A stretch of DNA of 50,181 bases from Stentor roeselii. Its lineage: Eukaryota > Ciliophora > Heterotrichea > Heterotrichida > Stentoridae. The position numbers and the translations under genes were made by a program. Below the pieces are notes generated by a model, which was not told the DNA's origin, did no database searches, and saw only the letters and a program-made list of their open reading frames with translations. The stretch lies in NCBI GenBank assembly GCA_006503475.1, contig RSEH01000314.1, positions 1 through 50,181 of the forward strand. Reading direction: 5' to 3'. Positions 22,949 through 46,282 of this stretch are shown piece after piece; position 1 is the stretch's first letter; each line of letters starts with the position of its first letter.

Positions 22949-24130
22949 ATGCTGCTAATTTTAATTCAAGTTTTAGATTCAGTGGCGATCTGCCAAAGCA
23001 TCGAGTTGCCAGTCGAAGTATGAAGCAAGTAGGAAGGAAAATTGGTGAATATCTGTCTCGGGTCTCCTGCCCAAGTGATCCCTCTAGTTCTAGACCTGAA
23101 CTCCAATGTACTCGCGACTTAGCAAACCTTCATCAGGCTGCAGTCAGAGACCTGCGAAGGGTTCAAAGCGAGTGAGTCTTCTTCATTCGCTGCAGGTCCA
23201 GACGGGTCGATTTTCTCAGAAGTAATAAAATTCGGAGACAATTCAAGAGTAACAGTAAAAAACTTAAAAGTCTCTCAAGAATGTTCCTCAAATTCAAGTT
23301 TCGGGTCATTAGGACTCAACTATCAACCAAATGACTTTTTATTCTCTGTTTTTTCTTCTTTGTCCTTTGACCAAGATAGTTTTTTATTAGACCTCGTTCC
23401 CAGCAATTCAAGTAAACTCGTTTTAGGCATTTCTTCCAACACATCTGAACAGCTTTCAATGAGTTCCAGCGGATTTTTACATTCTTGGGGATTCTCGACA
23501 CGTGGCTTTCGCTTCGGTTCGGTTTATGACACGAATTCCGCTGAAGTGCAGATAGATGTGAATGAGTCGTTTATTAAAGCTCCTGAAAAATTTGTGAGTT
23601 TTATTTTTTCTGAACTTTTGGAAGGAATGGCTTGTCGAGTTGAAGATTTCAAGTTTATCTTCTGTGGATGTGAATTAGTGGAAAATAGTCCTGAACTGCT
23701 TTTTTATGTGGAAGACCTGTCGATTTCTATCTCGCCTTTGAACTTGTTTGAACCTGTTGGTGAAGAGTGCAGGTTTGTAGTGACTTATCACAAAGAAAAC
23801 CAGTGGGTGCTTGGCCAGGCTTTATTTTTTGAATATCAGATGAATTTTGAGTTTCAGACTCGCAGGATCCACTTGTCGCAGAAGCCGCATGAAAAACCTG
23901 AAGAAGAGAAACCTATTTTAACTCATGAGGAACTTTGGATCACTTTTTTCACCATTGGAGGCTGTTTCTTGTTTTACATTCTTGTACGTGTTTCTTATGT
24001 TGTCTATGTCTGGGCATCTCAAAGGTTTGGAAACAGAAATCAAGATATTCAGGAACCTCTTGTTGAAAACCTCGATTTTTTAGAGATTGCCAAGTTTCGA
24101 GCGAGAAGAAGTGAAAATTCGAACAGGTAA
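22949..24130 (+). CDS. Degenerate aspartic-protease-like membrane protein (three exons)
   Basis: Splicing two 15-nt introns (23018-23032 and 23108-23122) gives a 383-residue protein. It has a signal peptide (MLLILIQVLDSVAIC), a pepsin-like start (EGKLVNICLGSPAQVIPLVLDLNSN), a C-lobe and a late WVLGQALFFEYQMNFE segment equivalent to WILGDxFLRxYY. One transmembrane helix (FFTIGGCFLFYILVRVSYVV) and a short tail follow. The two catalytic D(T/S)G motifs are replaced by DLN and DVN: both Asp remain, but both Gly and the hydroxyl residues are gone. It is probably a non-proteolytic member of the family, or one with altered activity. The WWE gene follows 39 nt downstream on the same strand. Confidence 0.85.
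23018..23032 (+). other. 15-nt intron (protease-like gene, intron 1)
   Basis: gtatgaagcaagtag contains stop codons in frame. Removing it joins the signal-peptide exon to the pepsin-like exon, ...PVE|EGKLV. Confidence 0.85.
23108..23122 (+). other. 15-nt intron (protease-like gene, intron 2)
   Basis: gtactcgcgacttag ends in a stop in the reading frame. Removing it continues the pepsin-like fold as DLNSN|QTFIRL. Confidence 0.85.
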
Positions 24131-24169
24131 TTAGAGGATTAGAATCAATAGGGTTAGATAGTTGAAAAT

Positions 24170-24865
24170 ATGAGTGTCAGAACTGTTCCGATACCTCAAG
24201 GTGCTCAGATTAGCGGAGAATTTTTAAGAGTTGTTATTTTGGCAACTTTAGATGTACAACCTGTTCCTTTTATTAAAGTAAAAAGTGGGTTTGTTGCTTT
24301 TCCTGCGAGTCATTCTGAGGCACAGAGAATTGAAAATTGTATTTTTACTATTGTATCGAAACTTGTTGTTGATGATACAGCAACTTGGAGTTATTTTGGA
24401 AAATGTGGGTATTTTCTTGCTTTTCCTGAAGAGGAGAATAGGAAATTAGAAGACTTTTATATCAACCATGCAAAAGTATATGACCCGAGCTACATAAGCC
24501 ACTCTCAATCATTTCAAGTCACATACCCAAAAGAAGGCCGAGTTTATTTTGACAAACTCGGCGGATTTCACATGATGATAAGAAAAAAAAAAATAATCCC
24601 AATAAAAAGATTTGCAGCTTACGAATATTTCTATTCAAAAACGATTCAATCGATCTGGAAATGGGAAGACAATAGCAACGGCTTTAAAAACTATTTGCCA
24701 GATCAAATATACTACCTAGGAATCGCTTTCCAGAAATGGGAATTAAACAAAAGGTTAAAAGTTCGACTTCATTCATCACAAGGACATTGTTACTCAATCG
24801 ACTTCAAAAGCCTGACTCAAAAAAACTCTTCAACAGGTTTCAAAAGAAAAATTAAACAAGTATGA
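24170..24865 (+). CDS. WWE-domain protein
   Basis: The 231-residue product ends in a WWE domain (residues ~160-230). Its signature features are IWKWEDNSNGFKNYLP, an aliphatic LGIAFQKW segment, YSIDF, and QKNSSTGFKRKI close to the C-terminus. WWE domains bind iso-ADP-ribose or ADP-ribose chains and usually occur in PARPs and in E3 ligases such as RNF146 and HUWE1. Here no PARP or RING domain is attached. The N-terminal 150 residues are of unknown fold (VVILATLD.., FVAFPASHSEAQR). It may be a reader of poly-ADP-ribose. It converges with the SAM-FHA-RING gene, 22 nt between stops. Confidence 0.85.
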   Translation: MSVRTVPIPQGAQISGEFLRVVILATLDVQPVPFIKVKSGFVAFPASHSEAQRIENCIFTIVSKLVVDDTATWSYFGKCGYFLAFPEEENRKLEDFYINHAKVYDPSYISHSQSFQVTYPKEGRVYFDKLGGFHMMIRKKKIIPIKRFAAYEYFYSKTIQSIWKWEDNSNGFKNYLPDQIYYLGIAFQKWELNKRLKVRLHSSQGHCYSIDFKSLTQKNSSTGFKRKIKQV

Positions 24866-24887
24866 TGAAGGTAATCAAACCTAAACT

Positions 24888-25937
24888 CTATTTAAACACT
24901 TTTACTTTGTCGTTAATATCTGTTCGGCAAATGGGGCACTGACTACATTTTCTCAAACACCCAAAACAAAAGAGGTGCCCACAAGGGTAACACAAGGTAT
25001 CAGGTTCATAAGTGAAGCAGATCTTGCATGCGTCTTCTTCATTAACATTTTCCTTGTTACACATAAAGCTGCAGAGTTGGACAAGTAAAACAGTCGAGCC
25101 GATTTTTATGAAATCGTCAAGAACCATATGAAAATCTTCACTTTTCTGTCCTTCTTCAGAAAGCCTTTTCCAGGTTTTATTCGTGGATCCGAGGTCTTCC
25201 AATACGAAATTTTTCTTCCGAAAAGAGATTTTTCCATGTTTCGCAGACATTTGAGAGTCATCTGAAACAACAATGGTATTTTCTCCATCTCTTCCAATAC
25301 TCGCGCCATTCTTATCGACAATAATTTCTTTTCCTCTGACAGGTCCTTCATACCCTTTTAAAACAAGTGAAATCGGAAGACCTTGAGGACTGAACTTGAC
25401 AACAGTAACTTTAAACTCACTGGTTCCCATTTGAAACAAGTCATTAATCCTCAGTTTAACTTGTTTTTTCACCATCACAAAAGTGCCAGTTGTCGAGCCC
25501 AGGTCTTTAAGTAAGAACCTGTTACTTCCTTGACAAAACCGTATTTCGCAGTGCTTTCGACTGACAAAACTTTCATTTATCACGAAAGTATTCGAACCTG
25601 AATGACGTCCGATGCTAGCTCCTGAGAAAGTCACGTCAAATTCTTTGTTTTTGCTTTGTCCTTCCACTGCTTTTAACGTGAGACCTGACCAGTCTAAGTT
25701 CTCCGACTGGTCCGGCTGCTGCGATTTCAATGATCGGATCGACTCCAGGATTTTGAACCGGTGAAGACGAACTTGAATGCTCAGGTCGTTCGTCAGGTCA
25801 GCTTCTGTTATTTCAAGAAGAAGTTTTCCGTCTATTCTGAGCTCTTCGAAGTTTTTGGTGTACTGAGACAGGTCCAGGGATTTCAGCCAGTTTTTCACAT
25901 CACTAGAAGACCATTGATATATTGCTGAGGATTCCAT
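24888..25937 (-). CDS. SAM-FHA-FHA-RING protein, probable E3 ubiquitin ligase
   Basis: Four domains fit into 349 residues. A SAM domain lies at ~5-70 (WSSSDVKNWLKSLDLSQY). FHA-1 lies at ~85-165 (ASIGRHSGSN, VSRKHCEI, LKDLGSTTGTF). FHA-2 lies at ~185-285 (ASIGRDGENTI, SAKHGKI, LEDLGSTNKTW). A C3HC4 RING lies at ~300-345 (CKIC, CGHLFCFGC, CPIC). The RING should recruit an E2, the FHA domains should bind phosphothreonine substrates, and the SAM domain may oligomerise. The architecture recalls FHA-RING ligases such as CHFR and RNF8 but with two FHA domains and an added SAM. All zinc ligands are present. Confidence 0.95.
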   Translation of the reverse strand: MESSAIYQWSSSDVKNWLKSLDLSQYTKNFEELRIDGKLLLEITEADLTNDLSIQVRLHRFKILESIRSLKSQQPDQSENLDWSGLTLKAVEGQSKNKEFDVTFSGASIGRHSGSNTFVINESFVSRKHCEIRFCQGSNRFLLKDLGSTTGTFVMVKKQVKLRINDLFQMGTSEFKVTVVKFSPQGLPISLVLKGYEGPVRGKEIIVDKNGASIGRDGENTIVVSDDSQMSAKHGKISFRKKNFVLEDLGSTNKTWKRLSEEGQKSEDFHMVLDDFIKIGSTVLLVQLCSFMCNKENVNEEDACKICFTYEPDTLCYPCGHLFCFGCLRKCSQCPICRTDINDKVKVFK

Positions 25938-26113
25938 TTGAATTGTTATGCGGTTTATTAAGAATATGGAATTGACTTTAGCAAGTTTAAGGGTTTTGCT
26001 TAGAAAGAGGAGAGAAGAGGATGTTAGGTTTGTTGAAGTAAATTTTAGAGAAATGAAGGGTTTTGATGAGAATTTTTTAGTTTTTTAGCTTTAGGGACAA
26101 CTATTTTTAAAGA

Positions 26114-27025
26114 TTATTCATTCTTAGACTTCTCGATATTTATGTAACTCAAAAAGGGAAGCCCCATCACGACGTAGGTGTAATAATGAAAGCCAGTGAA
26201 GTTAATCAAAAGAAGTACCATGTAACATTTTTCCATGAACAAATTGTCTTCCTTGTAATGAAAAGGCCAGTACGTCTTCTGCAGTCTAAGCCCGATAAAA
26301 ATCAGAATCCCGGTAACGATTTGTTTCTACTTACGCGATACCATCACTTGATTCTCACCAAGCCAAAGAGCGCTAAAGAGACTATTCAATACAAAAACCA
26401 GTTCTTGAAGCTTGATCACATAATGCCTGAATAAACCTCACCATTCTTTCCGAACAGGTTTTAACCCAGTTTGTAAAATGAAAGCTTTTTTGTACTCTTC
26501 TCTGTCATGCAGCATGATTAAAGGAGCCACAATGCAAACTGAAGTATACAAACTCACTGTTATAAAAAACGCTAAGGTTTTAAAATAATAGTCAAAAGTC
26601 ATCAGTTCCAAATGGTTAAACACCAGGAATACGAAAATATCTGGTAACACGACTTCCATCATGTAAAAAGAAAATTTCAGCTTTATCGTTCCTGACCATG
26701 CCCATTTCGCGAACAGGAATAAAAGAATGTTGATTAGGTGAAGGAACATTAGAATGAAGAAATCTGTCTGCATTTGAGTGCTTAGGTTTGAAAGGAGTGA
26801 CTGGTAAGGGAAAAAGAACTCTTTCAGAGGCCAGATTGAGGAACTGTGCTCGCATTTTGATGAGAAATCTGGCTCGAAGATGTTGAGTAAGAGGATCAGT
26901 CGAATGTACAAATAAGTGCATCTCATTATACTGTATCGCTTTTTTAGATGGGTATACGGAGAGCGAATGAGGAGCCTGAAAGAAGTTCCAAGAAGAATCA
27001 CTAGTGATTCGATATAAGTTACCAT
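26114..27025 (-). CDS. Multipass membrane protein (three exons)
   Basis: Splicing introns at 26427-26441 and 26327-26341 gives a 293-residue protein with about seven hydrophobic helices: residues ~3-20, 38-53, 92-112, 125-140, 150-175 and two in the last exons (VTGILIFIGLR and MVLLLINFTGFHYYTYVVM). The introns were found because the reading frame stops at each and resumes, still hydrophobic, after removal. The start is the ATG at 27025 (MVTYIESLV). No family was recognised. It resembles many uncharacterised ciliate membrane proteins. Confidence 0.75.
26327..26341 (-). other. 15-nt intron (multipass protein, intron 2)
   Basis: Minus strand gtatcgcgtaagtag. It ends in an in-frame TAG and has A at position 10. 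Confidence 0.8.
26427..26441 (-). other. 15-nt intron (multipass protein, intron 1)
   Basis: Minus strand gtgaggtttattcag, the only one of the set with GTG rather than GTA at its start. The frame meets TGA here and resumes after removal. Confidence 0.8.
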
Positions 27026-27265
27026 TATTATCAATAGAACAGATCAATTGCTTAATATTCAAGTAGATTGAACTATAACCTTACTCTTAATTCTTTAAAC
27101 CCATAAAAAATTGAATATTTCCAAAGTAAAATCAAAGGAAGCATAGTAAATATTGACTTCAAAGATATGATTACTGCAAAAAGATAATTAAAGTCCTCAT
27201 AGTTAATCTAAACATCGAAATCATTAAACAACTCAAATTCATTCACTTCATCACCAGTCCAATAA
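27026..27265. promoter_or_regulatory. Divergent intergenic region
   Basis: 240 bp between the starts of the minus-strand membrane protein and the plus-strand coiled-coil gene. AT-rich; no element identified. Confidence 0.35.
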
Positions 27266-28156
27266 ATGGAAGAGCAAAAAACAGAACTCAAGCAACTGAC
27301 ATCAAAAATAAAAGAACTTCAACTCGCTCTTTCATCAGCCGATGAGTCAGAAGAGTCTCGACAGTTAAAAACTCTTTTATCCCAGGTCCAAACTCTTCAA
27401 AAAGAAATCCTGTTGACGAAATCACAGCTACGACAGCAAAAATGCGAGAAAATGTTTGAAAAAAGGCAAAAATCTTCAATTCTTTCAAAAATTTCTAAAA
27501 ATTCCTGTAAAAGTTTGCCAGTCAAATCAAGTTACATTCAAAAACTTTCAGATTTGATCTCAAATTTCAATGGAAAAGCATCTCTTTTAAACCAGCTGAA
27601 GAAACTCCTGTCAAAAGAACGAGAAAACATTGAACTTCGAGCAAAACTTTCAGCAACTCAACGAAAACGAATAGACCTGGGAAAAGACTACGCTGAAATC
27701 ACGAAAAAACTAAGTGAAGACAACGATTTATCAAAGAAAATCAAGTACTTAGAAGAGCAGATTCCTTTAAAATCATCTTCTCTTGACTCCAAAAGAAAAG
27801 AACTAGGAAAAATCCGGGCTTCAGTGCAAGAACTGAAACTAGAGGTTCAGGACTATTCATCTGAATACATGCAAAAAACGATGAACAGTCTTCAGTTCGT
27901 GCAATCTGAAATGAAAGCCACAATTTTCAGCTTAAAAAAAGAACTTCAATTAATCGACCTTCAAATTTCTGAGGCTACTTCTCAGAAAAATACCGGAAAA
28001 AAAAACAATTACGACCTCGACAAGGTCGAAGTCAAAGGAATGCAAGTCCAACTACTAGAAAAGGAAAAAGAACAAGTTTTATATGAAAAGACTCGAAAAG
28101 AATTGAGAACTAAATTAGAAAATTCCTTAAAAGTCTTATCAGATAAAAAAAAGTAA
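27266..28156 (+). CDS. Coiled-coil protein, 296 residues
   Basis: Lys/Glu/Leu-rich heptads run nearly end to end, with a short break around residues 75-105 (KISKNSCKSLPVKSSYIQKL). No other domain is visible. It is plausibly a structural component of cilia or the cortex, given the convergent SHIPPO gene whose stop lies 1 nt away, but position is weak evidence. Confidence 0.85.
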   Translation: MEEQKTELKQLTSKIKELQLALSSADESEESRQLKTLLSQVQTLQKEILLTKSQLRQQKCEKMFEKRQKSSILSKISKNSCKSLPVKSSYIQKLSDLISNFNGKASLLNQLKKLLSKERENIELRAKLSATQRKRIDLGKDYAEITKKLSEDNDLSKKIKYLEEQIPLKSSSLDSKRKELGKIRASVQELKLEVQDYSSEYMQKTMNSLQFVQSEMKATIFSLKKELQLIDLQISEATSQKNTGKKNNYDLDKVEVKGMQVQLLEKEKEQVLYEKTRKELRTKLENSLKVLSDKKK

Positions 28157-28157
28157 C

Positions 28158-28895
28158 TTAAGTATTCGAAATCAACTGACTTTCAATTCTTGCCCTTTCT
28201 AGTCTTAAGTCATTTCTAGTTTTAAACTCTTTCGACTTCCTCTCAAAAACCGAAAGAATTTCATAAGACCCTGGCCCTGGGTTCCTCGCTTGTGCCATTT
28301 TCGTGAAATCATAACGTTTAGACGACCCAAACGCGATAGAAGCGAATCGATTCGCTTGCACAGAGCCCGTGTTGGGAAAGTAATAATCAGGCCCAGGGTT
28401 GTCCTTCACAGGGTCCAAAGCTTTATTCCTCGACTTGATCATAACTCCTCTGCTGGTCTTTCCAAGACTTGCTTCCAACTCGTAACTTCCAGGCCCAGGG
28501 ATTTCTTTATGAGTGTCCCAACTTTCTCTGTTAAAAGGCACTGAAGGACTAGTCTGCAGGAACTTTGACTGACTTTTGGGCTCTCGATGGGAAATCGAAG
28601 GGGCTGGGGTCTCGATCGGCCTGAAGACGTATCGCGAGCCGTAACCGATGTGAGCAGCTGACTTTGAAAGAGTGGAACCCAGGTCGATCAATGGCACGTC
28701 TTTCGTAGGCACTTCTGAAGCTTTGAATCGCTTTGCTTTCGGAAAGGTCCAAATTATGTTGCCTCGGGTGAAGGATGTCGCTGATTGAGTGAAGATTGAC
28801 TTTAACTTTGGACTTTTATGGCCTTGGTTTGAATACTCGTCGAGACCTTGGAACCTTCCTGACTTTGAATTCAAGAACTTGGAGGTGGAATCCAT
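28158..28895 (-). CDS. SHIPPO-repeat (sperm-tail PG-rich repeat) protein
   Basis: The 245-residue product carries STPGR/SHIPPO repeats, seen as IPGPGSYE, NPGPDYYFP and NPGPGSYEI, with degenerate copies upstream. The family (ODF3/CIMAP, STPG) decorates axonemal or other stable microtubules. The length and Pro-Gly-Pro spacing are typical. The ATG (28895) follows the TAA of the upstream gene (28898-28896) with no nucleotide between, so its 5' leader lies inside that gene unless translation starts later. Confidence 0.88.
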   Translation of the reverse strand: MDSTSKFLNSKSGRFQGLDEYSNQGHKSPKLKSIFTQSATSFTRGNIIWTFPKAKRFKASEVPTKDVPLIDLGSTLSKSAAHIGYGSRYVFRPIETPAPSISHREPKSQSKFLQTSPSVPFNRESWDTHKEIPGPGSYELEASLGKTSRGVMIKSRNKALDPVKDNPGPDYYFPNTGSVQANRFASIAFGSSKRYDFTKMAQARNPGPGSYEILSVFERKSKEFKTRNDLRLERARIESQLISNT

Positions 28896-30302
28896 TTAAT
28901 TAGGTTTATACTTTTTTAGTAGAAAAAAAGACCAATTTGAACAGATCTCTGGGTAAAAATCACTTTTGCTTATGAGTTGCTGAATTCTTAAACTTTCTTG
29001 GGAGAGTAAGAAGACCTCTTGCTTGTATCTTGATAGGGATGATACTAGCTTACGGATACTTTGACTGTATGAGAGACGTGAGGAATAAACTTGATCATCT
29101 CTTTGGAAATCACTTTCTTCTCCTTTTGCTAGTGATTGAAAACGCTTTCGACTACCTCGGATTAGTGAAACTTCTGTTTTCAACTCGAAAAACTTCTTGA
29201 TTTTGAGTTTTTCTCGGTAGAACTTATGGCTCATTACTTTCATCGAGGTTTTTAGCCTGTGATATGCTTTAAACCATTTCCAGCTAACAAAAAGCCTCGA
29301 AAGTTTCCTGTTTTTCATATACTCCTGAATATCAAACAAAAACCTCTGTATTTGTTTCGGCCTTTCAGCAATAGCTTTCCAAGCCTTAACAATTTTGATC
29401 TTCTTAAACAAATAAATTGCATTCCTGGCAAGTTGAATACATGTTTTTTTTTCTTTTTTCATTTTCATAAAAGAAATCCAAGCAGCGAAAGTATAAAAGA
29501 CAAGAGGTGCAAGACTCATAGTCCTAGCTTTTCCAACCAGTGCCTGAACCCCTTGAAAGTAAGTCGTGACGACCCTCAAAGCACGAAAACTCATAATTTT
29601 CAAGTTTTTTTCCCAGATACTCGAAGCCATTCCCATTTGAATCTCAAGTGCATGAGTTTTTTCTTCAATTTTACTCATCAAGTCACGTTTTTTCTGTTTT
29701 TCGACACAAACCGCATGTTTCGAAGACTTGACGCCAGTGAACCCGACATTAAGAAAAGGTCGATTGGCTCTAAGCAGCTCTTTCAGCTTTTCCCTTTCAA
29801 TTAAAAGATTATATTCAGCTCTTAAGTTCATTTCAATGTTTTTCTTTTGTTTTAAGTAGTTTTTTTGAGTCTTTTTGAATTTTTCTGCTGTGAACTTTGT
29901 GTGATTTTTCTGTTGTTTTAACTCGCATAGCTGGGGAAGGAGAGATTTTTTTATTATCAGTGAAATGCTCGATATTAGCTCTGAACGCGGTTTAAACGTG
30001 TAGCGATTCACGAAAGAAATGAAGTTTTTAGGAGTGAATAGGAAAGAATCGCTGAATTGAGATGGATTTGGAAGGGAGAAACTGTAAAAAGTCTCGAAGT
30101 TTATCACGCTTTCGTCGTATTCGAACTGTGATATTGATCCTGGAGAGTCAAGATCGTTTATTAGGGAAAAAAGAGAAAGGTCTTGAAATTTTTGATGTTT
30201 TTCTGATGGCTTTTCTTGTTCTTCTAAGTTTTCATCTGCCCAAGCCACTGTCTTGGGTTTTTCATCGACTCGGCAGATGAATCCCGGTCTGAAAACTTTC
30301 AT
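28896..30302 (-). CDS. Sfi1-like helical protein, possible centrin-binding
   Basis: The product has about 468 residues from the ATG at 30302 (MKVFRPGF), which follows TATAATTAT; another in-frame ATG lies at 30338. The middle (residues ~255-400) has long basic helices with spaced Trp in settings like FYTFAAWISF, KIVKAWKAI and LFVSWKWF, resembling Sfi1-type centrin-binding repeats (A-x7-LL-x3-F-x2-W). Such proteins form Ca2+-responsive filaments or basal-body links in ciliates. The N-terminal third is acidic and unstructured. Open frame further upstream overlaps the divergent ankyrin gene and was not used. Confidence 0.75.
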   Translation of the reverse strand: MKVFRPGFICRVDEKPKTVAWADENLEEQEKPSEKHQKFQDLSLFSLINDLDSPGSISQFEYDESVINFETFYSFSLPNPSQFSDSFLFTPKNFISFVNRYTFKPRSELISSISLIIKKSLLPQLCELKQQKNHTKFTAEKFKKTQKNYLKQKKNIEMNLRAEYNLLIEREKLKELLRANRPFLNVGFTGVKSSKHAVCVEKQKKRDLMSKIEEKTHALEIQMGMASSIWEKNLKIMSFRALRVVTTYFQGVQALVGKARTMSLAPLVFYTFAAWISFMKMKKEKKTCIQLARNAIYLFKKIKIVKAWKAIAERPKQIQRFLFDIQEYMKNRKLSRLFVSWKWFKAYHRLKTSMKVMSHKFYREKLKIKKFFELKTEVSLIRGSRKRFQSLAKGEESDFQRDDQVYSSRLSYSQSIRKLVSSLSRYKQEVFLLSQESLRIQQLISKSDFYPEICSNWSFFLLKKYKPN

Positions 30303-31139: not shown

Positions 31140-31175
31140 TTGAAACTTTAGGATTTAACTCTAGTGTGGAAATAA

Positions 31176-32603
31176 ATGTCTTGTGTCATTCCAAGTAATC
31201 AATAACCAGTTCTTCCTGACGAGCTGTATCAATACGAGACCTACGAGCGCATCGTGGGCGTCATGGACTACATGGAAAAGCTCTTCGACACGACGATGGA
31301 CTGCGTGGCAGGCCGAGTAATTTTCACCTAGATGTCTGAATGCAAGTCCAAAGTTGACTCTCTAAGTTCCCGAATCACGACTGCCAGAAATCGTATCTCT
31401 CAAGCAAAAGGTTCTTCAAGAGCGCTAAACATTTTTTCCTCTCCCAGCTTTCCAAAGCTGGAAAACCAGGACGACCAGCTTCTTCCTTCCCAGAAGCCGA
31501 TGCCGAGGTACCATCCGACTGTTCATGAAACTGAACACCCTGGGCAAGCCCCTCGTGGAAACACTTCAGATGTGACAATGTTGCACTCTTTGTATATGAA
31601 ACTCAAAGTCCCGACACCTTCCATGCTTGACCTTCCACAGCAACATAAAGAAATAGGACTTGGAGAAGCACCTCAGGATATTTCGAACTCTTCAACTTTT
31701 TTACTTTTCAACTCGCATTCGAATCCTTATAACATGGACTTCACGGAAATTGCACCGGAAAAAAAACAGACTTTTAATGATCGGACTGTTAGTGTTAATC
31801 TTCCTGAAGCACCGAAGACTATGCAGGAAGCGGATGACTTTTCAAACTTTGGAAAAAAGGACTTTGTGTATCAGCCTGATACTAAGGAAACTCCTAAGGT
31901 GGATTTACCTTCCCAGCTTAATATACCTGGAATTGCTAATTTGGACTGGGATGATGATGAAGATGATGATTTTTCTTCTGGGTTTTCGTTGGGACCTCCG
32001 AGAAGTGTGCCGAGCTCCGCGCCTTCTGGGAATGTTAGCAAACCCGAACCTCCTCAGGAAAAAATGCCGGCTTTGCCTTCACTTCCAAGTCTTGATGGAA
32101 GGTCATCTGCTCCTGCTCCTGTTAGTAAACCTTCTAATGCTCCTCCGCCACCGCCACCTCAAACCAAGGCACCTCCTCCTCCTCCTCCTCCACCTCAATC
32201 AAGAGCTCCGCCTCCTCCTCCTCCACCTCAATCAAGAGCTCCTCCCCCTCCTCCTCCCTCGAGTGGAAAGGCGCCTCCTCCGCCTCCCCCCAAAGAAGCT
32301 CCAAGCAACTTGAGTGCCGGAAGTCGAGGCGAGATGTTGGCAGCGATTCGAGCAAGACAAGAAAATCCTTTAGCAGGTTTAAAGAAAACCGAAACAGTCG
32401 ACAAGTCAGTTCCATCAATAAAAGGTTCAGGAGGCTCAGCATCAGCATCAGGCAAAAAAGATCCATTTTCTCTTCTTAAAGAACAGATCGGGCTGAGGTT
32501 CAACGCGATTCACGCCCCAGCTGTATCAGACAAGTCAATAAAAAAGCCTGCAATAATGACAGAAACGAAAAAAGGCAATGACAGTGATTCTTATTCTGAT
32601 TAA
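31176..32603 (+). CDS. WASHC1: WASH complex subunit 1 (three exons)
   Basis: Splicing two 15-nt introns (31195-31209 and 31317-31331) gives about 465 residues, the usual WASH1 length. The N-terminal WASH homology region includes PILPDELYQYETYERIV and ISQAKGSSRALNIFSS. A middle STFLLFN and DLPSQLNIPGIANL segment also matches WASH1. A poly-proline stretch (~260-325) should bind profilin. A WH2-like motif (RGEMLAAIRARQENPLAGL) and a connector (FSLLKEQIGLRFNAI) follow. WASH1 activates Arp2/3 on endosomes for retrograde and recycling traffic. The acidic tail ends DSDSYSD, with Tyr where the usual Trp is expected. Exons 1 and 2 are only 19 and 107 nt, so simple ORF finding misses the true N-terminus. 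Confidence 0.95.
31195..31209 (+). other. 15-nt intron (WASH1, intron 1)
   Basis: gtaatcaataaccag contains an in-frame stop. Splicing joins CVIP to ILPDEL, matching the conserved WASH1 N-terminus. Confidence 0.92.
31317..31331 (+). other. 15-nt intron (WASH1, intron 2)
   Basis: gtaattttcacctag ends in an in-frame TAG. Splicing joins DCVAGR to MSECKSK. Confidence 0.92.
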
Positions 32604-32656: not shown

Positions 32657-33034
32657 ATGGAAAAAAAAGTCAATCGAGTTGTTAAGAAGAGAAAAAAAAT
32701 TTATGTTTCTGCTTCGTTTTTAGACCCGGCTCTTAAAGCGCAGGTTAAACCGAGTTTAGATAGGCAGGCCAGGTTTAAGTAAGGAATAAGAAGGTTGAAG
32801 GACTTTTGCTTTGCTGGAGTTAAAAATAGAGGAAATTTCCAGGCTTGGCTTGATATTTCGAATAGCTATGTTCAACCTGTTGAGAAAAAGCAGCTCAGAA
32901 AATCAACTCGAAGCTTTTCTAGGCTGCCGAGCGTTTCGAAAAATAATAAACCTAGAACGTCATCGAAACCTATGTTTATTTTGATTAGTGAAAAGGAACT
33001 TAACTCGAGTGCAATAAACGAAAAGATGCAATAA
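32657..33034 (+). CDS. Small basic hypothetical protein (two exons)
   Basis: The reading frame from ATG 32657 (MEKKVNRVVKKRKK) reaches a stop in gtaaggaataagaag (32779-32793). Removing this 15-mer continues the frame to 33034, giving 120 residues. The protein is Lys/Arg/Ser-rich with LDPALKAQVKPSLDRQARF near the start and no recognisable domain. It lies 53 nt after WASH1 on the same strand. Confidence 0.7.
32779..32793 (+). other. 15-nt intron in small basic gene
   Basis: gtaaggaataagaag, with in-frame stop and A at position 10. The 3' end is AAG rather than TAG or CAG. Confidence 0.75.
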
Positions 33035-34497: not shown

Positions 34498-34498
34498 T

Positions 34499-36007
34499 TC
34501 AACCTGTTATTTTAAAGTCTTTTAGGTTTTCCTTGCAACATGGGCAATTTTTTAAGATTTTCGTTGTCTCGCCGATGACTTTTTTGAGGCACTCGAGGTG
34601 AAATGCGTGGTTGCAAGGAGTGATGACCATGGCTTCATCGGGTCCGATCTCGGTCATGTCGAGAGGACACATTTTTACTTTGATGTCTTCGATTCGGTGA
34701 GTTCTGAGACCGATTTCACTCGTGCTTCTTGATTGAGTGTCCAGCAGGGATGGGTCTTTCACTTTTATCGCAGTGATTATGCTGGACAAGAAGAACCTGA
34801 GTAATTTTTACACAATAAAAACCACGAAACAACAGGCGATTACTGAATATAAAAAAAAACGAAGATATTCACCGTCTTGGTTGCAGTCAGGGTCGTCGAT
34901 ACACATCTCGTTACAGTTACCGTCACCCAATAAGAACCTAAAGCATCCCTTTTCCCGTTGACATCTCAAATTAGAGAACCCACAATGAATATTATCACAG
35001 AAAATCGAGCAATTTGTGCTTCTTAAACTCTTAAAAGAACACCCTGGACTACAAAACTCACATTCTTGTGGTTGTTCCGCAAAACTAAGACAAAACGCAG
35101 ACTCCAGATATCCAAACCAATAAATATCAACAGAGTTGATAACAAATCTCGAAGGAGTTTCCTCATAAGTCAAATATCTATCAAGTGCAGAAAAGCTTTT
35201 CCTCAAGTTTTTAATATAATTTTTAGAGATCTCAAAAATACATGTCGAGTTGTAATTACAGTTTTGAAAGACACTTCTCAAAAAAATCAAGAAATTGGCA
35301 GTAGAGTTAGGACTTGAAAACCTTTCATAAACATTAAGAATCAAGACATAAGCTTCCAACTTGACTGTTCCAAAGACCTCGTCACTAGGAAGACAGTAAG
35401 TCCTATTCGAAGGTCCTGAAAGGCAGTCATTTTCCGGGTAAGGTGAATGCGAAGAGGCCATGAGTTGAAATCGTACATATTCCCAATGCACTGCAAATTT
35501 CGAGTTCAACTTGATAAACTCTTGCGTGATGATCAAATCCTTTAAAAAGTCCCCTGTCAACTTGACTTCGATAAAAGGGTAGCTACTTTGAAAAAGCATG
35601 TATCTATAAGTAATCCAGATGTTTTTCGCATTATGAAAGTGTTTTTTATAGTCATTTCTCGAAAGACTTAAAACCATGATATTCGGATCGTCACCTTCGC
35701 AGTCCTTTTCAATCATTTTCGCCTCATCTTGCACTACGACCAGTCCTCGCCCGCCGCTATTTCTAACTTTTCTGGCAGTTTCGAGAAGACAGCATTCAGA
35801 AGAATTAGTTAAAACAACGACTGTCTCGTATTCCAGGAGTTTGTTGAACTTGCAGTCTTTCATCACCTGAATTTTTCCGTACATCGAGTAAAAGGTCGGG
35901 TTGCCGAACAAGGCTGGATAGATCCGGATTTGTGAGTCTTTCAGGTCGTCTGGACTTTCTACCCTGAACTCACTTTGAGCTATTTGGATTAATATCAAAA
36001 TCAACAT
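34499..36007 (-). CDS. PA-LNR-TM-RING protein, probable membrane E3 ligase (two exons)
   Basis: The 497-residue product is rebuilt across one 15-nt intron (34797-34811). It has a signal peptide (MLILILIQIAQS) and a protease-associated (PA) domain at ~25-130 (TVVVLTNSSECCLLETARKV, VRNSGGRGLVVV). A Cys-rich region ending in a Lin-12/Notch-like repeat follows (CFRFLLGDGNCNEMCIDDPDCNQDGEY in parts, ~365-390). One transmembrane helix is split by the intron (YSVIACCFVVFIV|FFLSSIITA). A cytoplasmic RING ends the protein (CPLD, CNHAFHLEC, CPCC). PA-TM-RING ligases (GRAIL, RNF13, RNF167) act on endosomes. The second zinc ligand is Asp instead of Cys. Confidence 0.92.
34797..34811 (-). other. 15-nt intron inside the TM helix of the PA-RING gene
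   Basis: Minus strand gtaaaaattactcag. The upstream frame ends at TAA here; removal joins FVVFIV to FFLSSIIT and links the luminal part to the RING. A 17-nt GT-AG alternative does not keep the frame. Confidence 0.9.
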
Positions 36008-40221: not shown

Positions 40222-41241
40222 ATGGAAGACTTCGAAACCCCACACATCCAGTCCAAACTATTAGGAATCCGTAAAACCCTCGAACGTCTCGGCGATTCCA
40301 TAAGCGACGAAGTAATAAAAAACTAGGAAAATTCCTTAATCTCTTCATCCTTTCACAAAAACTCTTCATTCGAAAACGCGGATTCTTACTTTCAATGGAA
40401 TTCTTACATCGCATTTGCAGAGCAAGACTCAAAACCTTCCTTTCAATCAAAACTTGCTGATTTTCACCAAAATAATGAATTTTTACCTAAATCTCTTGAA
40501 GCAAAGTCAGAAGAAATCATTTCATTGAAATCGCGTTTGAAGTCTTTCGAGTCTCTTCTACTTGAAAGAGAAGGTCAAATCTCGAAGTTGATTCAAGAAA
40601 AAGAATCTTTTTTTGAAGCTGAAGAACAAATGCAGCTTACTTTGCAAGAGCTAATAAAAGAAAACAAGGAACTTAAAGAACTCAACGAAATCAGCGAAAT
40701 CGAGAAAAACCAGCTGCAACAAGAACTAAGAGAAAGTCTTTTTGTGATTGAAAAGCTGAGAAAAGCTTTAAAAAATAAGGAGGACTTGATGAATGAGCTC
40801 AGTTCAAGAAAAATTGAGACTTTTTCTTCTGAGCATTTTTGCAAGTCCGGCTTCGACTCTCCTCAAAAGTTCGGAATGACTGATCGAAGAGGTTATAAAG
40901 AGACCTGTTTAGAAGGAATGAAAATTGTTGGAGTATCTTCAGTCGATGACTTCCACTCAAAGCTCATTCACCTCAGGCAATGCCATTCAAAGTACAAAAA
41001 AACAAAAAAGTTAGTAGACCGAATATCTGACATGATCATTCAATGCTCACCTTCAGGCAGTTTTAAAAAAGAGCCGTCAAGTCACCAGATCTGGAAATGG
41101 ATCACATCATTAGTAGAAGAATACATGAAGATAAAAAAGTCACTTCAAGGCATTCAAAAGCTGCTTTCAATGACTGGGTCTTCTGATATCGACCAGCTGA
41201 TGATGAAAGTAGCGAGTTCTTTAAACATTAAGATTGTTTGA
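40222..41241 (+). CDS. Coiled-coil protein (two exons), parent of the downstream fragment
   Basis: The ATG at 40222 (MEDFETPHIQ) opens a 30-codon exon. A 15-nt intron (40312-40326) joins it to the long exon, giving 334 residues. Residues ~85-215 are coiled coil rich in Glu, Lys and Leu. The C-terminal ~100 residues (FHSKLIHLRQCHSKY, SSHQIWKWITSLVEEY, MTGSSDIDQLMMKVASS) look like a folded helical domain. That same part is duplicated downstream at 42391-42690. The function is unknown. Its stop is 16 nt from the convergent GST gene. Confidence 0.85.
40312..40326 (+). other. 15-nt intron in the coiled-coil gene
   Basis: gtaataaaaaactag contains TAA and TAG; removing it keeps the frame from ISDE to ENSL. 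Confidence 0.88.
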
Positions 41242-41257
41242 ATGTAGTCCTAATTAG

Positions 41258-41914
41258 TTAAAGCCAGGCCGCTTGGGAGTTGTTCCAAGGCAACCTTGCA
41301 GAAGTGAGTCGAGCTTGAAGCTGAGGTAAAGAAGCGATTCTAACTCTGTAGTTTTCAATACTTTCCCCTGCTGACTGCGACGATCCAGGGCTTAGAGCAT
41401 TCAGCAGTTCGAGGATTTCGAAGAAGATGAAGTCAGGCCAAGTGATCTGCTCTCCCAACAAGAACTGCTTCTCGCCCAGGTACTTCTTCAGTCGAGCCAC
41501 TTCAGCTAACGCGTCTTGGACCACTGAGTCTTTCTTTGAAAGGAAAGTCGGGTCGTAGCATTGCATTGCTATCCAAAATTTGATGTCGTGCAATACTCCA
41601 CCCAGTTGGTTTATCTCAGCTCTTTGCTCTACTGTCTCACCTGCAAGGGGCGCACCGTATTTAGAAGCGATGAACTGGAAGATTGCTAAGGTTTCAGAGA
41701 TTCTTACAGCACCGTCTAAAAAGTATGGCAGATTTGGAAAGCTCATTCCGAGACCTTCTATTGCGTTTGTCCATTCTGACCCGTCGAAGTCTGGAGCTGG
41801 TCCTTGCAAGTAGGTCTTGTTTTCGAAATCAACTCCGAGGTAGTCCAATAGGTATCTGATACTTTCAGCTAAACCTCTGATGTGCCAATATCCGAGAGTT
41901 GGTTTCTGAGCCAT
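41258..41914 (-). CDS. Glutathione S-transferase, mu-like, copy A
   Basis: This 218-residue GST is closest to the mu class. The N-terminal thioredoxin-fold part has TLGYWHIRGLAESIRYLLDY with the catalytic Tyr9, FPNLPYFLDG (cis-Pro) and the SETLAIFQFIA glutathione-binding region. The C-terminal helical domain includes LGEQITWPDFIFFEILELL. It conjugates glutathione to electrophiles in the cytosol. It is about 89% identical to copy B and more distant from copy C; all three lie on the minus strand. It overlaps no neighbour and has its own upstream AT-rich region. Confidence 0.95.
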   Translation of the reverse strand: MAQKPTLGYWHIRGLAESIRYLLDYLGVDFENKTYLQGPAPDFDGSEWTNAIEGLGMSFPNLPYFLDGAVRISETLAIFQFIASKYGAPLAGETVEQRAEINQLGGVLHDIKFWIAMQCYDPTFLSKKDSVVQDALAEVARLKKYLGEKQFLLGEQITWPDFIFFEILELLNALSPGSSQSAGESIENYRVRIASLPQLQARLTSARLPWNNSQAAWL

Positions 41915-42390
41915 TTATTTTGGGATTGATTTCTAGAATATATAGGTTTAAATATGGATTCTTTATGGTTAGTTTATAGAAAGTATTTAGGGAAAAGATA
42001 ATAATAAGGAGATTCATTTCGAATTATAATTTATTTATTGGATTTGGAAAAATTTGATTGTGATTTAGTTTAAATTGGTAATGAAAAGTTTTTATAGCAT
42101 TTTTCTTGATTGTTGAGAAATTTTTTTTAGTTTTAGATATCCTTCAGCATCCTCATCAAATTGCTTGATAATGATAGATCACATTAGAATACTTGAAAAT
42201 TACTTTTCCAAACATTCAATATTCATCTTATCATAATCTGATAGAAATTACTTATACTACATCAAAGTACAGAATAATTACTAAAACAATTTTTTTCATG
42301 TATTTTCATGTAAATAGCGCATCTAAGACCCAACAAAATCTTTTTCATCAAAAAAAATTCCATAAAACTCAAACAATCTAAGACCCAGAA
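41915..42390. other. Intergenic part of the GST duplication
   Basis: AT-rich sequence upstream of copy A, alike the stretch upstream of copy B at ~43365-43900. It should contain the GST promoter next to 41914. No named element identified. Confidence 0.5.
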
Positions 42391-42690
42391 GTCAATTACT
42401 TCCACGCGAAGCTCATTTACCCTAGGCAATGCCACTCAAATAAAAAAAAAACAAAAAAGCTAATAGACCGAATTTCTGAAATGATCATTCAATGCTCACC
42501 TTCATGCAGTTTTAAAAAAGAGCTATCAAGTCACCAAATCATTAAATGGATCCCATCATTAGTAGAAGAATATATAAAGATAAAAAAATCACTTCAAGGC
42601 ATTCAAAAGCTACTTTCAATGACTGGTTCTTCCGACATCGACCATCTGATAATGAAAGTAGCGAGTTCATTAAAAATAAAGATAAATTAA
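42391..42690 (+). pseudogene. Orphan 3' fragment of the coiled-coil gene
   Basis: About 300 bp closely match 40942-41241, the C-terminal ~100 codons of the upstream coiled-coil gene. The frame is still open to a TAA and recognisable (IIQCSPSCSFKKE, SLQGIQKLLSMTGSSDI), but the first two thirds of the gene, including its start and intron, are missing. It was presumably carried along when the GST was duplicated. Substitutions such as W to I in HQIWKW and loss of the Tyr/Lys in CHSKYKK suggest relaxed constraint. Confidence 0.85.
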
Positions 42691-42707
42691 ATCTAATCCT
42701 AAATTAT

Positions 42708-43364
42708 TTAAAGCCAGACCGCATGGGTGTTGTTCCAAGGCAACCTTGCTGAAGTGAGTCGAGCTTGAAGCTGAGGTAAAGAAGCGATTCTAACTCTGTA
42801 GTTTTCAATACTTTCCCCAGCTAACTGCGACGCTCCGGGGCTCAGAGCATTCAGCAGTTCGAGGATTTCGAAGAAGATGAAGTCAGGCCAAGTGATCTGC
42901 TCTCCCATCAAAAACTGCTTCTCGCCCAGGTACTTTCTAAGTCCAGCCAGTTCCGCTACCGAGTCTTGAACCACTGCTTCCTTCTTTGAATGGAAGGTCG
43001 GGTCGTAGCATTGCCATCCTATCCATCGTTTGATGTCATGCAATACTCCACCCAGTTGGTTAATCTCAGCTCTTTGCTCTACTGTCTCACCTGCAAGGGG
43101 CGGACCGTATTTAGAAGCGATGTACTGTAAGATCGCTTGGGTTTCAGAGATTCTTACAGCACCGTCTAAAAAGTATGGCAGGTTTGGAAAGCTCATTCCG
43201 AGACCTTCTATTGCGTTCTTCCAGGCTGACTTGTCGAAGTCTGGAGCTGGTCCTTGCAAGTAGGTCTTGTTTTCGAAATCAACTCCGAGGTAGTCTAATA
43301 GGTATCTGATACTTTCAGCTAAACCTCTGATGTGCCAATAACCGAGAGTTGGTTTCTGAGCCAT
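42708..43364 (-). CDS. Glutathione S-transferase, mu-like, copy B
   Basis: Same length and motifs as copy A: TLGYWHIRG with Tyr9, PNLPYFLDG, and the WPDFIFFEILELL helix. About 25 residue differences from copy A are visible. Most fall at residues ~45-50, 76-88 and 113-145, while both ends are nearly identical. The 113-145 region corresponds to the helices that line the hydrophobic-substrate site in mu GSTs, so substrate range may have shifted. Intact and probably functional. Confidence 0.95.
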   Translation of the reverse strand: MAQKPTLGYWHIRGLAESIRYLLDYLGVDFENKTYLQGPAPDFDKSAWKNAIEGLGMSFPNLPYFLDGAVRISETQAILQYIASKYGPPLAGETVEQRAEINQLGGVLHDIKRWIGWQCYDPTFHSKKEAVVQDSVAELAGLRKYLGEKQFLMGEQITWPDFIFFEILELLNALSPGASQLAGESIENYRVRIASLPQLQARLTSARLPWNNTHAVWL

Positions 43365-43966
43365 TTATTTTGGAATTGATTTTGAATACATGTGTTTAAA
43401 TATGGATTCTTTGAGATTTGTCTTAGAAAAGCAGGTTTTATATTGTAAAAAAAAATAACAGTTGAGTAATTTTGAATTAGAATTTGTGAGATGATTTAGA
43501 AAAACTATATAATGATTCACTTTTTATGGAATATTAAGAGTTTTTATAGGACTTTTTTTGATTGTTGAAAAATATTTTTCGTAGTTTTAAGTATCTTTCA
43601 GCATACTGATCACATCGCTTGATAATTATAGTTCACATTAGAATACTTGAAGATTAATTTCCCGAACATTCAATATGCATCTTATCATAATATGATAGAA
43701 ATTACTCATACTACATCCAAGTTCAGAAAAATTACTAGACAATACTTTTTTCAAATATTTTCATATAAAGAGCCCATCTCAGACCCAATCAAACTTTTTT
43801 CTAAAAAAAATTCCATAAACCCAAACAATCTAAACCCAAAATCTCCCATTATTTGTCCAATCAATCAAATACATTCCAAAATACATAATTCATTATTAAC
43901 CTTCTAAATCCAAAAAAAAAAAACCCATCCATTTCCTAATCCCTCTAAAATCCTAATCCTTAAGAT
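43365..43966. other. Intergenic part of the GST duplication
   Basis: AT-rich sequence between copies B and C, recognisably related to 41915-42390. No coiled-coil gene fragment precedes copy C. Confidence 0.5.
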
Positions 43967-44623
43967 TTAAAGCCAAGCTGCTTGTGTGTTGTTCCAAGGT
44001 AGCCTGGGCGCAGTGATCCTTCTTTGCAATTGTGGCAAAGCTGCCATTCTCGCTCTGTAGTTTTCAAGATTTTCTCCAGCCGAAAGGACAGTTCCAGGAC
44101 TAAGAGCATTAAGCATTTCGAGAAGTTCAAAAAAGATGAAATCAGGCCAAATAATTTGATCCCCAAGTAAAAATTTCTTCTCGCCCAAAAACTTTCCAAG
44201 TCGAGCCACTTCGTCTCGGCAGTCTTGCACGACTGAGTCTTTTCTTGATAAAAATGTTGGGTCGTAACATTGACCTGATAGCCACCATTTCACATCGTGA
44301 ATCGCTCCACCTATTTGATTGATCTCTGCTATTTGTTCTAGAGTGTGACCTGCTAGGTCTGGACCATATTTAGATGCGATATATTGGAAGATTGTCAAAG
44401 TTTCAGAAATTTTTAGATCACCGTCTATGTAATGGGGTAGATTTGGGAAACTCATTCCGAGACCTTCGATTGCGTTAGTCCAGGCTGACTTATCAAAATC
44501 TGGGCCTGGGCCTTGAAGGTAAGTCTTGTCTTCAAAATCAACTCCAAGATAATCTAAAAGATACCTGATTCCTTCAGCAACACCTCTGATATACCAATAA
44601 CCAAGAGTCGGTTTCTGAGCCAT
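43967..44623 (-). CDS. Glutathione S-transferase, mu-like, copy C
   Basis: A 218-residue GST with TLGYWYIRGVAEGIRYLLDY (Tyr9), PNLPHYIDGDLKISETL and IIWPDFIFFELLEML. It is clearly more diverged than A and B but keeps all the expected features and the same length, so it is likely an older paralogue. The three share the unusual ending PWNNxxAxWL. Confidence 0.95.
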   Translation of the reverse strand: MAQKPTLGYWYIRGVAEGIRYLLDYLGVDFEDKTYLQGPGPDFDKSAWTNAIEGLGMSFPNLPHYIDGDLKISETLTIFQYIASKYGPDLAGHTLEQIAEINQIGGAIHDVKWWLSGQCYDPTFLSRKDSVVQDCRDEVARLGKFLGEKKFLLGDQIIWPDFIFFELLEMLNALSPGTVLSAGENLENYRARMAALPQLQRRITAPRLPWNNTQAAWL

Positions 44624-44794
44624 TTATTTGTGATTGATTTTTGAGTAAAAATATCCATACTAAAATGCCTATGAAAATCATATACCAAGTTCCCTCTCAA
44701 TTTGAGCAATTTCCAAACTAATCCAAAAATCAAAAATTTTCTATAATCCCCAAATTTCCCTTCTTTCAATCTTCTATCAAATAAATCTCCTCAT

Positions 44795-45613
44795 CTAAAA
44801 CATTAAGCAGTTATTACATAACGCTGTATCTTTATTCCTAACAACTTTCCTCTTCGCAGCAAGGCTAACTCCTTCATCAACAGTGACACTATACCCGTTC
44901 ATTCCAGCCTGGTACTTATCTTCATCAGCAGAATTACTTCGACTTCTTTGCCCTCCAAGTCCTTCAGCCTTTGCGACGTCATCAATGACAACAGCGACAC
45001 TTCTTCCAGTGACATATCCTAAAATAATACCTCCAAGACAAGCTTTCTTTCCAAAGACAATACTCGCCCTAGAGCTTGAGTACTTAATCCCTGAGTTCTG
45101 CAGTAAGTTATTCAATTCAGCACTGGGAAGAATATTTCCATTTGCATCAACGATATCGAAAGCAAGATAATTGATTTGAACAAGTTGTTGATAAAAGGTT
45201 TTCTTACTTTCCAGGTCTTCTTTCGTCAAAGTGACTTCATTGTTAAACGGCAGGTAAGGACTTGATGACTTCTTTATATGTGGAGGCGCCCCGTTCATTA
45301 TTTCAACACCTGTCGGAACTGACAGAATTCTAATCAAAAGTCGCACATGTTCGAAACCCGCTGCTCGAAACCCCCAAAAAGCTTTACTTGACAAAATATA
45401 ATCCCCGTTGTCATAAACTACAATCGCTTTTCCTTCAGGTACCTCGACTGACCGAATAGTTGAAATGAACTTTGATGAAACTTCTTCAACGACCAGCAAA
45501 GCACTTCCTGAGATGTACCCACTGGGCTGTTGGAAGACAGAAGAGCAGTAAACGAATAAGAAGTTAGAAAGGCCGGAGTCGACACATTCTTGAATCGATA
45601 TAAAAGGGTTCAT
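44795..45613 (-). CDS. Degenerate rhodanese-like protein with CaaX box
   Basis: The 272-residue product resembles a tandem rhodanese (mercaptopyruvate/thiosulfate sulfurtransferase). The clearest part is AIVVYDNGDYILSSKAFWGFRAAGF (in parts, ~64-90), equivalent to the VVYDxxxxxxAxRxWWxLRxxG region. A second unit is at ~175-215. The active-site Cys loop (CxxGxxA) is not intact; the matching place reads VFGKKACLGG. Catalysis is therefore doubtful. The C-terminus is CNNCLMF, ending in a CaaX-type box (CLMF) with Phe last, which would suit geranylgeranylation and membrane attachment. The fold assignment is moderate in confidence. Confidence 0.8.
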   Translation of the reverse strand: MNPFISIQECVDSGLSNFLFVYCSSVFQQPSGYISGSALLVVEEVSSKFISTIRSVEVPEGKAIVVYDNGDYILSSKAFWGFRAAGFEHVRLLIRILSVPTGVEIMNGAPPHIKKSSSPYLPFNNEVTLTKEDLESKKTFYQQLVQINYLAFDIVDANGNILPSAELNNLLQNSGIKYSSSRASIVFGKKACLGGIILGYVTGRSVAVVIDDVAKAEGLGGQRSRSNSADEDKYQAGMNGYSVTVDEGVSLAAKRKVVRNKDTALCNNCLMF

Positions 45614-45736
45614 TTTTTATTTATGTGATTTTTTCAACAAGATTAAAGACTTGAGAATGACTGGATGATGAAAGTTGGGCAATTGGCTTTATTTTTGGTT
45701 TGGGTAAATGTGGGATTACGAGAAATTATATTTTTA

Positions 45737-46282
45737 ATGAAACGAAAGTCTTTGAGCTTAGGAAAACTTCTCACGATACCTGAACCGACTGTTGTTTGCT
45801 CCAGTATTGAAATCAGGAAATGTGGAAGTTCGAGGTCGTTGGTAAGAATTATGTAGAGCTCTTCGGTTGACCCTTTTGAAAACTTGAGGTTTTCAGATAA
45901 GAAAACACCTAGTCTTAGACCTATTTTGAATAGACATCGCAGAGTTCCTTCGCATTTGCAGTATCTTAAAGATAAACTTGAATTAAGCAAACCTTGTGCT
46001 AAGAGTCTTAGTCATTCGCAACCTGAGTCTTCACTTCCTAGCATTTTTAGCAAACCTTTTAGGAAAGGAATCAAAATTAACTGGCCAGCCTTCATGCAAA
46101 AGCCAAGCAATCCAAAAGAGCGAGAAATTTCGACTCCCTATTTCCAGTCCCACCGAACAGAAACCAAATCGAAGCAATTAATGCAAAAAAAAAGGCAGAT
46201 TAGAAAGAACTTTTTTGACCATGTGAAGCAAAGAAAAGAGGAATTCAGTTTCGGAAGTATCGAAGAAGCACTCTCTAATTAA
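45737..46282 (+). CDS. Small basic hypothetical protein (two exons)
   Basis: The chosen ATG (45737, MKRKSLSLGK) follows TTATATTTTTA. Other in-frame ATGs lie upstream (45662-45667). A 15-nt intron (45842-45856) with an in-frame TAG joins SSRSL to SSSVDP. The 176-residue product is rich in Lys, Arg and Ser with a helical end (KQLMQKKRQIRKNFFDHVKQ in parts). No family recognised. SAC1 follows 14 nt downstream. Confidence 0.7.
45842..45856 (+). other. 15-nt intron in small basic gene
   Basis: gtaagaattatgtag, ending in an in-frame stop, with A at position 10. Confidence 0.82.

Follow-up and report, generated by a model that had tools for sequence, protein, structure and literature searches.

The window considered here, a stretch of 50,181 nt (bases 1–50,181 of contig C246 of its assembly), carries protein-coding genes that are interrupted by GT-AG stretches of only 15 nt, which have the appearance of very short spliceosomal introns. 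An earlier note had described eleven of these 15-mers, and every one of them is present with correct plus-strand coordinates; four (17394, 26327, 26427, and 34797) are minus-strand members, and their strands had not been given. Read in the sense of the gene, ten of the eleven begin with GTA and one (26427) with GTG, all end with AG, and all carry an A at position 10 (A10), as had been claimed. An A is found at this position in 27.1% of the 1577 GT-N11-AG 15-mers of a 250,181-bp sample (introns included), at which rate eleven out of eleven would arise by chance with a probability of about 6e-7, a figure to be read with the caveat that the listed introns were possibly picked partly by this pattern. 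Since a length of 15 is divisible by three, the frame is preserved when such an intron is retained, and only an internal in-frame stop betrays the retention; 10 of the 11 contain one, and excision restores open frames, the longest of 423 codons. The stop codons are standard ones: TAA (12), TAG (9), and TGA (2) terminate the 23 frames that reach 250 codons or more, and the standard code holds in frames of up to 1336 codons. The string GTR-N6-A-N3-AG occurs 42 times on the two strands of the window, comprising the 11 listed introns, 18 other sense intragenic copies, 11 antisense copies, and 2 intergenic ones.

Gene A (16341–17624, minus strand) encodes an aspartyl protease of the eukaryotic type (Pfam PF00026, E = 2.9e-66) whose C-terminus includes a hydrophobic stretch, and it contains two introns. 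One of them, GTAATTTCCAATCAG (17394–17408, minus strand), lacks an in-frame stop and is supported by comparison with pepsinogen: it interrupts DTGSS|WIWV and, if translated, would place five residues directly after DTGSS, beside the pepsin active site. The pepsinogen score is 126.6 bits with the 15-mer retained, with a five-residue gap there, vs. 134.2 bits when it is spliced, and the profile of the protease family (see below) also chooses a length of 15. The other, GTAATTAACAAAAAG (17484–17498, minus strand), is a 15-nt, phase 0 stretch with A10 and without an in-frame stop, located 25 codons upstream of the first. It was not selected by scoring (free excision prefers 6 nt at 301.1 bits, vs. 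297.9 bits for 15 nt and 294.6 bits without a cut), and it is accepted as an intron because its spacing and phase match those of gene B and other paralogs; the 25-codon spacing is common to the introns at 23018 and 23108 of paralog B, to the leading pair of introns in 8 other paralogs, and to L030 (stretches from outside the window are numbered with an L, and positions within them follow a colon). The list of eleven is accordingly sound in each of its members but falls one short as a full count, and the window holds 12 introns of the heterotrich type, a kind that is already published. Since 15-nt introns with A10 have been reported for Stentor coeruleus (PMC9505925), the pattern in the window is not new. 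A further 15-mer, GTAACCTCTAAACAG (10612–10626, minus strand), lies near the 5′ end of the gene at 9694–10707 and has no in-frame stop; it may be an intron or simply five codons.

Gene B (22949–24130, plus strand) encodes a divergent aspartyl protease whose spliced form matches PF00026 (E = 1.4e-7) from residue 143 onward; the start codon was assigned from a signal-peptide-like N-terminus. Its first intron, GTATGAAGCAAGTAG (23018–23032, plus strand), is in phase 0 at the site that corresponds to 17484 and contains an in-frame TGA, so that retention stops the frame after 1 codon; the profile score gives it no support at this divergent N-terminus. The second, GTACTCGCGACTTAG (23108–23122, plus strand), is also in phase 0, with a retained frame that ends after 4 codons and 335 open codons upon excision, and its length of 15 is the one chosen by the family profile. 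In the remaining genes all three intron phases occur. Gene C (26114–27025, minus strand), which encodes a hydrophobic protein with no Pfam match, contains GTGAGGTTTATTCAG (26427–26441, minus strand), the sole intron with a GTG start, in phase 2 with an in-frame TGA at intron positions 2–4, and GTATCGCGTAAGTAG (26327–26341, minus strand), in phase 0 with an in-frame TAG, excision of which opens 70 codons. Gene D (31176–32603, plus strand) encodes a WASH-complex protein, and both of its junctions are spanned by a match to Pfam PF11945 (WASH_WAHD; residues 5–255, E = 1.1e-26); a search of these junctions against the PDB gave no significant match, and Pfam served instead. The intron GTAATCAATAACCAG (31195–31209, plus strand) follows codon 6 in phase 1 and gives a stop on retention, and GTAATTTTCACCTAG (31317–31331, plus strand), also found by a de novo scan that made no use of A10, opens 423 codons once excised.

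Gene E (32657–33034), for which a Pfam search gave no match, contains GTAAGGAATAAGAAG (32779–32793, plus strand), a phase 2 intron with an in-frame TAA, the excision of which joins 44 and 80 open codons. In gene F (34499–36007, minus strand), a RING finger (Pfam PF13639, E = 3.4e-6) is encoded 3′ of the intron GTAAAAATTACTCAG (34797–34811, minus strand), which is in phase 2 and contains an in-frame TAA; its excision joins a 404-codon stretch to the 99 codons that bear the RING finger. Genes G (40222–41241) and H (open frame 45647–46282) likewise gave no match in Pfam searches. The former contains GTAATAAAAAACTAG (40312–40326, plus strand), which has an in-frame TAG, opens 304 codons, and was recovered by the relaxed de novo scan, and the latter contains GTAAGAATTATGTAG (45842–45856, plus strand), which has an in-frame TAG and opens 141 codons.

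Intron length was examined by a de novo scan of 250,181 bp, made up of the window plus twenty 10-kb stretches taken from further contigs. All GT-AG stretches of 8–40 nt were considered, with a codon-usage score on both flanks and the condition that retention must break the frame; position 10 was not used, and the expectation was taken from 13 control dinucleotide pairs. The strict scan yielded 14 stretches of 15 nt where 0.66 were expected, all 14 with A10 and among them the intron at 31317 of the earlier list, and the other lengths from 8 to 40 nt were near expectation, the largest being 27 nt (4 vs. 1.42). In the relaxed scan, 25 stretches of 15 nt were observed (6.2 expected), 22 of them with A10, and a scan for the motif GTA..A(-6)..AG returned 20 stretches of 15 nt, where the control with the A placed elsewhere gave 0.0. 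Ten further spliced proteins were compared with Pfam, and in 6 of them a match covers the junction (a hydrolase, a zinc transporter, a PDEase, an M14 peptidase, a CAP protein, and a sugar transporter); the other four submissions include one sent without the junction and one that was a 14-nt candidate, L017:5636, which was not counted, there being no Pfam match across its junction. A second 14-nt candidate of the random sample (L020, minus strand, 8064) was left out of the counts as well. Introns of 16 nt found no clear support in the strict scan (1 vs. 0.95, the single case without the A) or the relaxed scan (9 vs. 10.2); the sole 16-nt motif candidate with the A, L010:1456, has only nine codons upstream and was not counted. 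Selection against intron look-alikes within exons was considered and set aside: the z-score of -1.67 is the lowest of 14 patterns, yet it is near the -1.35 and -1.37 of other spacings.

A second line of evidence on length comes from the family of gene A, for which at least 55 matches were found (A and B included). The 57 genes examined consist of 55 stretches together with A and B. Every GT-AG excision of 9–45 nt was scored by a profile built on 25 intronless-looking paralogs, one of which, L045, contains an intron 5′ of the segment that entered the profile. Scoring picked 54 excisions, of which 40 were kept, and five introns were added by conserved position (A:203, B:219, L030:191, L039:133, and L044:286; L030:191 was picked with a five-paralog profile only), giving 45 accepted introns in 20 genes. 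The 14 dropped picks (B:397, L040:441, L044:271, L058:115, L059:185, L060:106, L067:982, L067:1055, L071:379, three in L072, L075:447, and L077:525) all have lengths divisible by three and resemble protein-level insertions; L067:1055 has the length and the A10 of a 15-nt intron, and L044:271 overlaps an accepted one. Among the 45 introns, 42 are 15 nt long, three are 14 nt, and none is 16 nt. An A six nucleotides from the end is present in 42 of the 45, corresponding to A10 in 39 of the 42 introns of 15 nt, and GTA begins 40 of these 42 (GT and AG being required by the search), with only loose conservation beyond it. All 45 are in phase 0, 40 start before position 441 of the ~1.1-kb stretches, and 30 contain an in-frame stop. 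In a free-excision test, in which GT and AG were ignored and a cut of 0–27 nt could begin anywhere up to 9 nt from the site, exactly 15 nt was preferred at 31 of the 42 sites called 15 nt and exactly 14 nt at two of the three called 14 nt. Beyond the window, the earlier description of these introns as exactly 15 nt with an invariant A therefore has to be relaxed, each property failing in three of the 45.

The three 14-nt GT-AG stretches lie at homologous intron positions, L032:187–200 and L036:177–190 on the plus strand and L038:136–149 in reverse-complement coordinates, and they are the only picks with a length that is not a multiple of three. Within the assembly, L032 is found in 67316–68500 of contig C38, L036 in 6000–7100 of C176, and L038 in 162190–163330 of C127 (minus strand). 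At L032:187 (GTATTCATAAATAG), the score is 314.1 bits at 14 nt, with 308.4 for the next best length and 296.1 without a cut; at L036:177 (GTATTTTTAAATAG), the corresponding values are 196.1, 191.4, and 174.8 bits. The case of L038:136 (GTAAATTTAATCAG) is weaker, because 14 nt (189.9 bits) loses to 2 nt (194.3 bits), a length of the same frame class. An earlier profile of five paralogs yields the same three introns. The exon leading to the next intron measures 75 nt in L032 and L038, as in paralogs with 15-nt introns, and 108 nt in L036, compared with 105–114 nt in other paralogs. Each 14-mer starts with GTA and has an A six nucleotides from its end, and its positions 9 and 10 are both A. On this evidence, functional spliceosomal introns of 14 nt, one nucleotide below the published minimum, probably form a minor class in this genome, in the place that 16-nt introns occupy in S. 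coeruleus, and two to three gene copies seem to need them. A point that counts against such a class is that the 250-kb sample shows no clear excess at 14 nt in the strict scan (2 vs. 1.27), the relaxed scan (19 vs. 20.05), or the motif scan (2 vs. 0.8 in the control).

The 14-nt cases may instead be true genomic deletions that break splicing, in which event the genes concerned would be recent pseudogenes. L036 and L038 indeed lack the catalytic DTG motifs, whereas L032 keeps both of them in an intact frame of 352 codons with three introns. The motif at the first site (D[TS][AG]S) is present in only 10 of the 25 intact intronless-looking paralogs (L045–L069), so its loss is no mark of a pseudogene; many of these paralogs may be inactive and have been retained for a different function. 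Taken with the GTA start and the A six from the end that all three 14-mers share (GT and AG having been required by the search), these observations make the pseudogene explanation unlikely. It is also conceivable that the 14-mers are 15-nt introns from which the assembly has lost one base, given that one assembly is the sole source, that the 14-mers contain homopolymers (T5, A3, and T3), and that the sample of 250 kb has no clear excess of such lengths. A second profile match in another frame was found in none of the 57 family genes (~61.6 kb of final coding frame), although L075 and L083 match the profile only partly and end shifts are possible there. This absence of exonic frameshifts argues against assembly deletions. 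The PDE domains likewise run without a break in all 56 of the best candidates listed, beginning at profile position 1 and reaching position 226 or beyond (of 238), with stops in 3 of these 56 matches, and the probability that three evenly falling single-base deletions would all hit the 672 nt of intron is about 1e-6. We therefore consider an assembly artifact improbable and retain a small class of 14-nt introns as the preferred interpretation.

With regard to the 15-mers of the window, we hold with high confidence that they are spliceosomal introns of the heterotrich type, in a ciliate with standard stop codons, most likely a heterotrich close to Stentor, a placement drawn from its intron type and genetic code. 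Their excision restores conserved proteins, 15 nt is the strongly preferred length, and the A six nucleotides before the 3′ end is nearly fixed. Several observations weigh against this interpretation. The relaxed scan exceeded expectation at 25 nt (16 vs. 9.4) and 27 nt (15 vs. 8.3), and the motif scan exceeded its control at 20 nt (3 vs. 0.2), 28 nt (3 vs. 0.6), 16 nt (1 vs. 0.0), and 24 nt (2 vs. 0.0). The motif is not sufficient to define an intron, as 24 copies of GTA-N6-A-N3-AG occur in 165,939 bp of exons (32.6 expected from synonymous shuffles). In the protease family, A10 is absent from L035:352 and L037:383, and the position-added L039:133 lacks an A anywhere from position 7 to position 13; 15 of the 45 introns, including the three of 14 nt, lack an in-frame stop and rest on homology or position. 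Free excision prefers another length at 11 of the 42 sites called 15 nt, namely 6 nt at A:203, L030:191, L039:133, and L040:143, 18 nt at L035:352, L040:359, L041:380, and L043:436, 20 nt at B:219, 24 nt at L045:147, and 27 nt at L044:286; by score, B:219 is weak, as is the 14-nt site L038:136. Moreover, splicing itself and the branch point are what we infer from the DNA.

Two other readings of the 15-mers fare much worse. If they were translated five-residue insertions or contained read-through stops, the preservation of the frame by 15 nt and the lack of a stop at 17394 and 17484 would follow; however, 10 of the 11 listed 15-mers place a TAA, TAG, or TGA in a supported frame, these same codons terminate the other long frames, the corresponding sites in paralogs are empty or stop-bearing, and five residues after DTGSS would break the pepsin active-site strand, all of which leaves this reading with a very small probability. 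Hardly any credence attaches either to the 15-mers being remnants of internal eliminated sequences (DNA removed in nuclear development), a process that does occur in ciliates and is worth naming in view of the unstated nucleus of origin of the assembly, because the GTA...AG ends, the fixed branch-like A, and the fixed length are those of published Stentor introns and canonical spliceosomal small nuclear RNAs (snRNAs) are present.

Two features of the window stand apart from its introns. The first 10,000 nt have a GC content of 27%, compared with 36–38% in the other four 10-kb bins, and contain three long genes. At 41258–44623 on the minus strand lies a tandem of three similar genes of 218 residues, which are presumably glutathione S-transferases.

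The genome contains one match above the Rfam gathering score for each of the U1, U2, U5, and U6 snRNAs. The 5′ end of U1 (ACUUACCU), the GUAGUA region of U2, and the ACAGAGA of U6 agree with the Rfam consensus; the U1 sequence starts with UCACUUACCUGG, and GUGUAGUAUCUGUUCU is kept in U2. Among the proteins, Cwc25 has the N-terminus MGLAFLNKKSW, and its alignment to the human homolog begins at residue 6. The alignment of Isy1 starts at residue 33 against the human protein and at residue 11 (their residue 6) against those of worm and yeast, a difference that, on these alignments, reflects extension and change of residues 1–10 and not the loss of a domain. Yju2 is conserved from residue 1. In addition, a Saf4/Yju2-like gene in L028 contains a 15-nt intron of its own (reverse-complement 1586–1600, GTAAAATATAAACAG) with A10 and an in-frame TAA, located within the Pfam match. 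As to the earlier view that the machinery must be adapted to such short introns, the canonical contact sites of the U1, U2, and U6 RNAs show no visible adaptation. The N-termini of Cwc25 and Isy1 differ, with an effect on splicing that is conjectural. In the preferred model, the major spliceosome removes the 15-mers with A10 as the branch point, producing a lariat with a loop of 10 nt and a tail of 5 nt. That A10 serves as the branch point, as had been presumed, is likely, and the same position has been published for S. coeruleus (PMC9505925). U1 and then U6 would read little beyond GUA plus weak A/U preferences, so that the fixed spacing between the 5′ site, the branch A, and the 3′ AG would carry much of the specificity. 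In the minor 14-nt class at homologous positions, the distance from the 5′ site to the branch or from the branch to the 3′ site would be one nucleotide shorter, with a loop of 9 nt or a tail of 4 nt; since positions 9 and 10 both hold an A, the shortening could fall on the loop or on the tail.

The assembly amounts to 44.4 Mb, and the genome of S. coeruleus is about twice that size. In the S. coeruleus data of PMC9505925, the branch A occupies position 10 in 8005 introns of 15 nt (90.9% of all introns) and position 11 in 442 introns of 16 nt. The lengths divide into 8173 cases of 15 nt and 633 of 16 nt, 8806 together, with none of 14; four figures of that paper sum to this total and fit the stated percentage, so the set contains no other length. 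The likeness between the two genomes covers the GT-AG ends, the GUA start, the dominance of 15 nt, A10, and the canonical pairing sites of U2 and U6. It extends to a three-way N-terminal pattern, the S. coeruleus proteins being described as a Cwc25 without the GGG plug, an Isy1 with a changed N-terminus, and a Yju2 with a conserved one (PMC9505925). By contrast, no 16-nt intron occurs among the 45 family introns here, an outcome with a chance of 0.035 if the published rate applied, and three of the 45 are 14 nt. The reputation of heterotrichs for introns of 15–16 nt, to which the earlier note had appealed, agrees with these reports (PMC9505925; PMC9942806; PMC11441545), about 95% of heterotrich introns being given as 15 bp and the rest as 16 (PMC11441545). 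Blepharisma stoltei, also a heterotrich, has mostly 15- and 16-bp introns (PMC9942806) but reads UGA as Trp, whereas the standard code applies here and 2 of the 23 long frames end with TGA. Loxodes magnus, of the sister group, shares very short introns but has a mode of 17 bp and a negligible number below 16 bp (PMC11441545). The low end of intron size is cited as 15 nt, in Stentor (PMC12862383, 2026; PMC12316389), and introns of 14 nt were not found in print in the available parts of the literature, Slabodnick 2017 and the Blepharisma supplement being left aside; the 14 nt mentioned in one paper is a distance from telomeres.

The introns of the window repeat the S. coeruleus pattern in what is probably another heterotrich genome, and they are recoverable from DNA and homology alone. 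The 14-nt introns, if spliced, would set a new lower limit for the folding of a substrate by a spliceosome with canonical snRNAs, and they would provide a direct test of its ruler, that is, of the distance from the 5′ site to the branch against that from the branch to the 3′ site.

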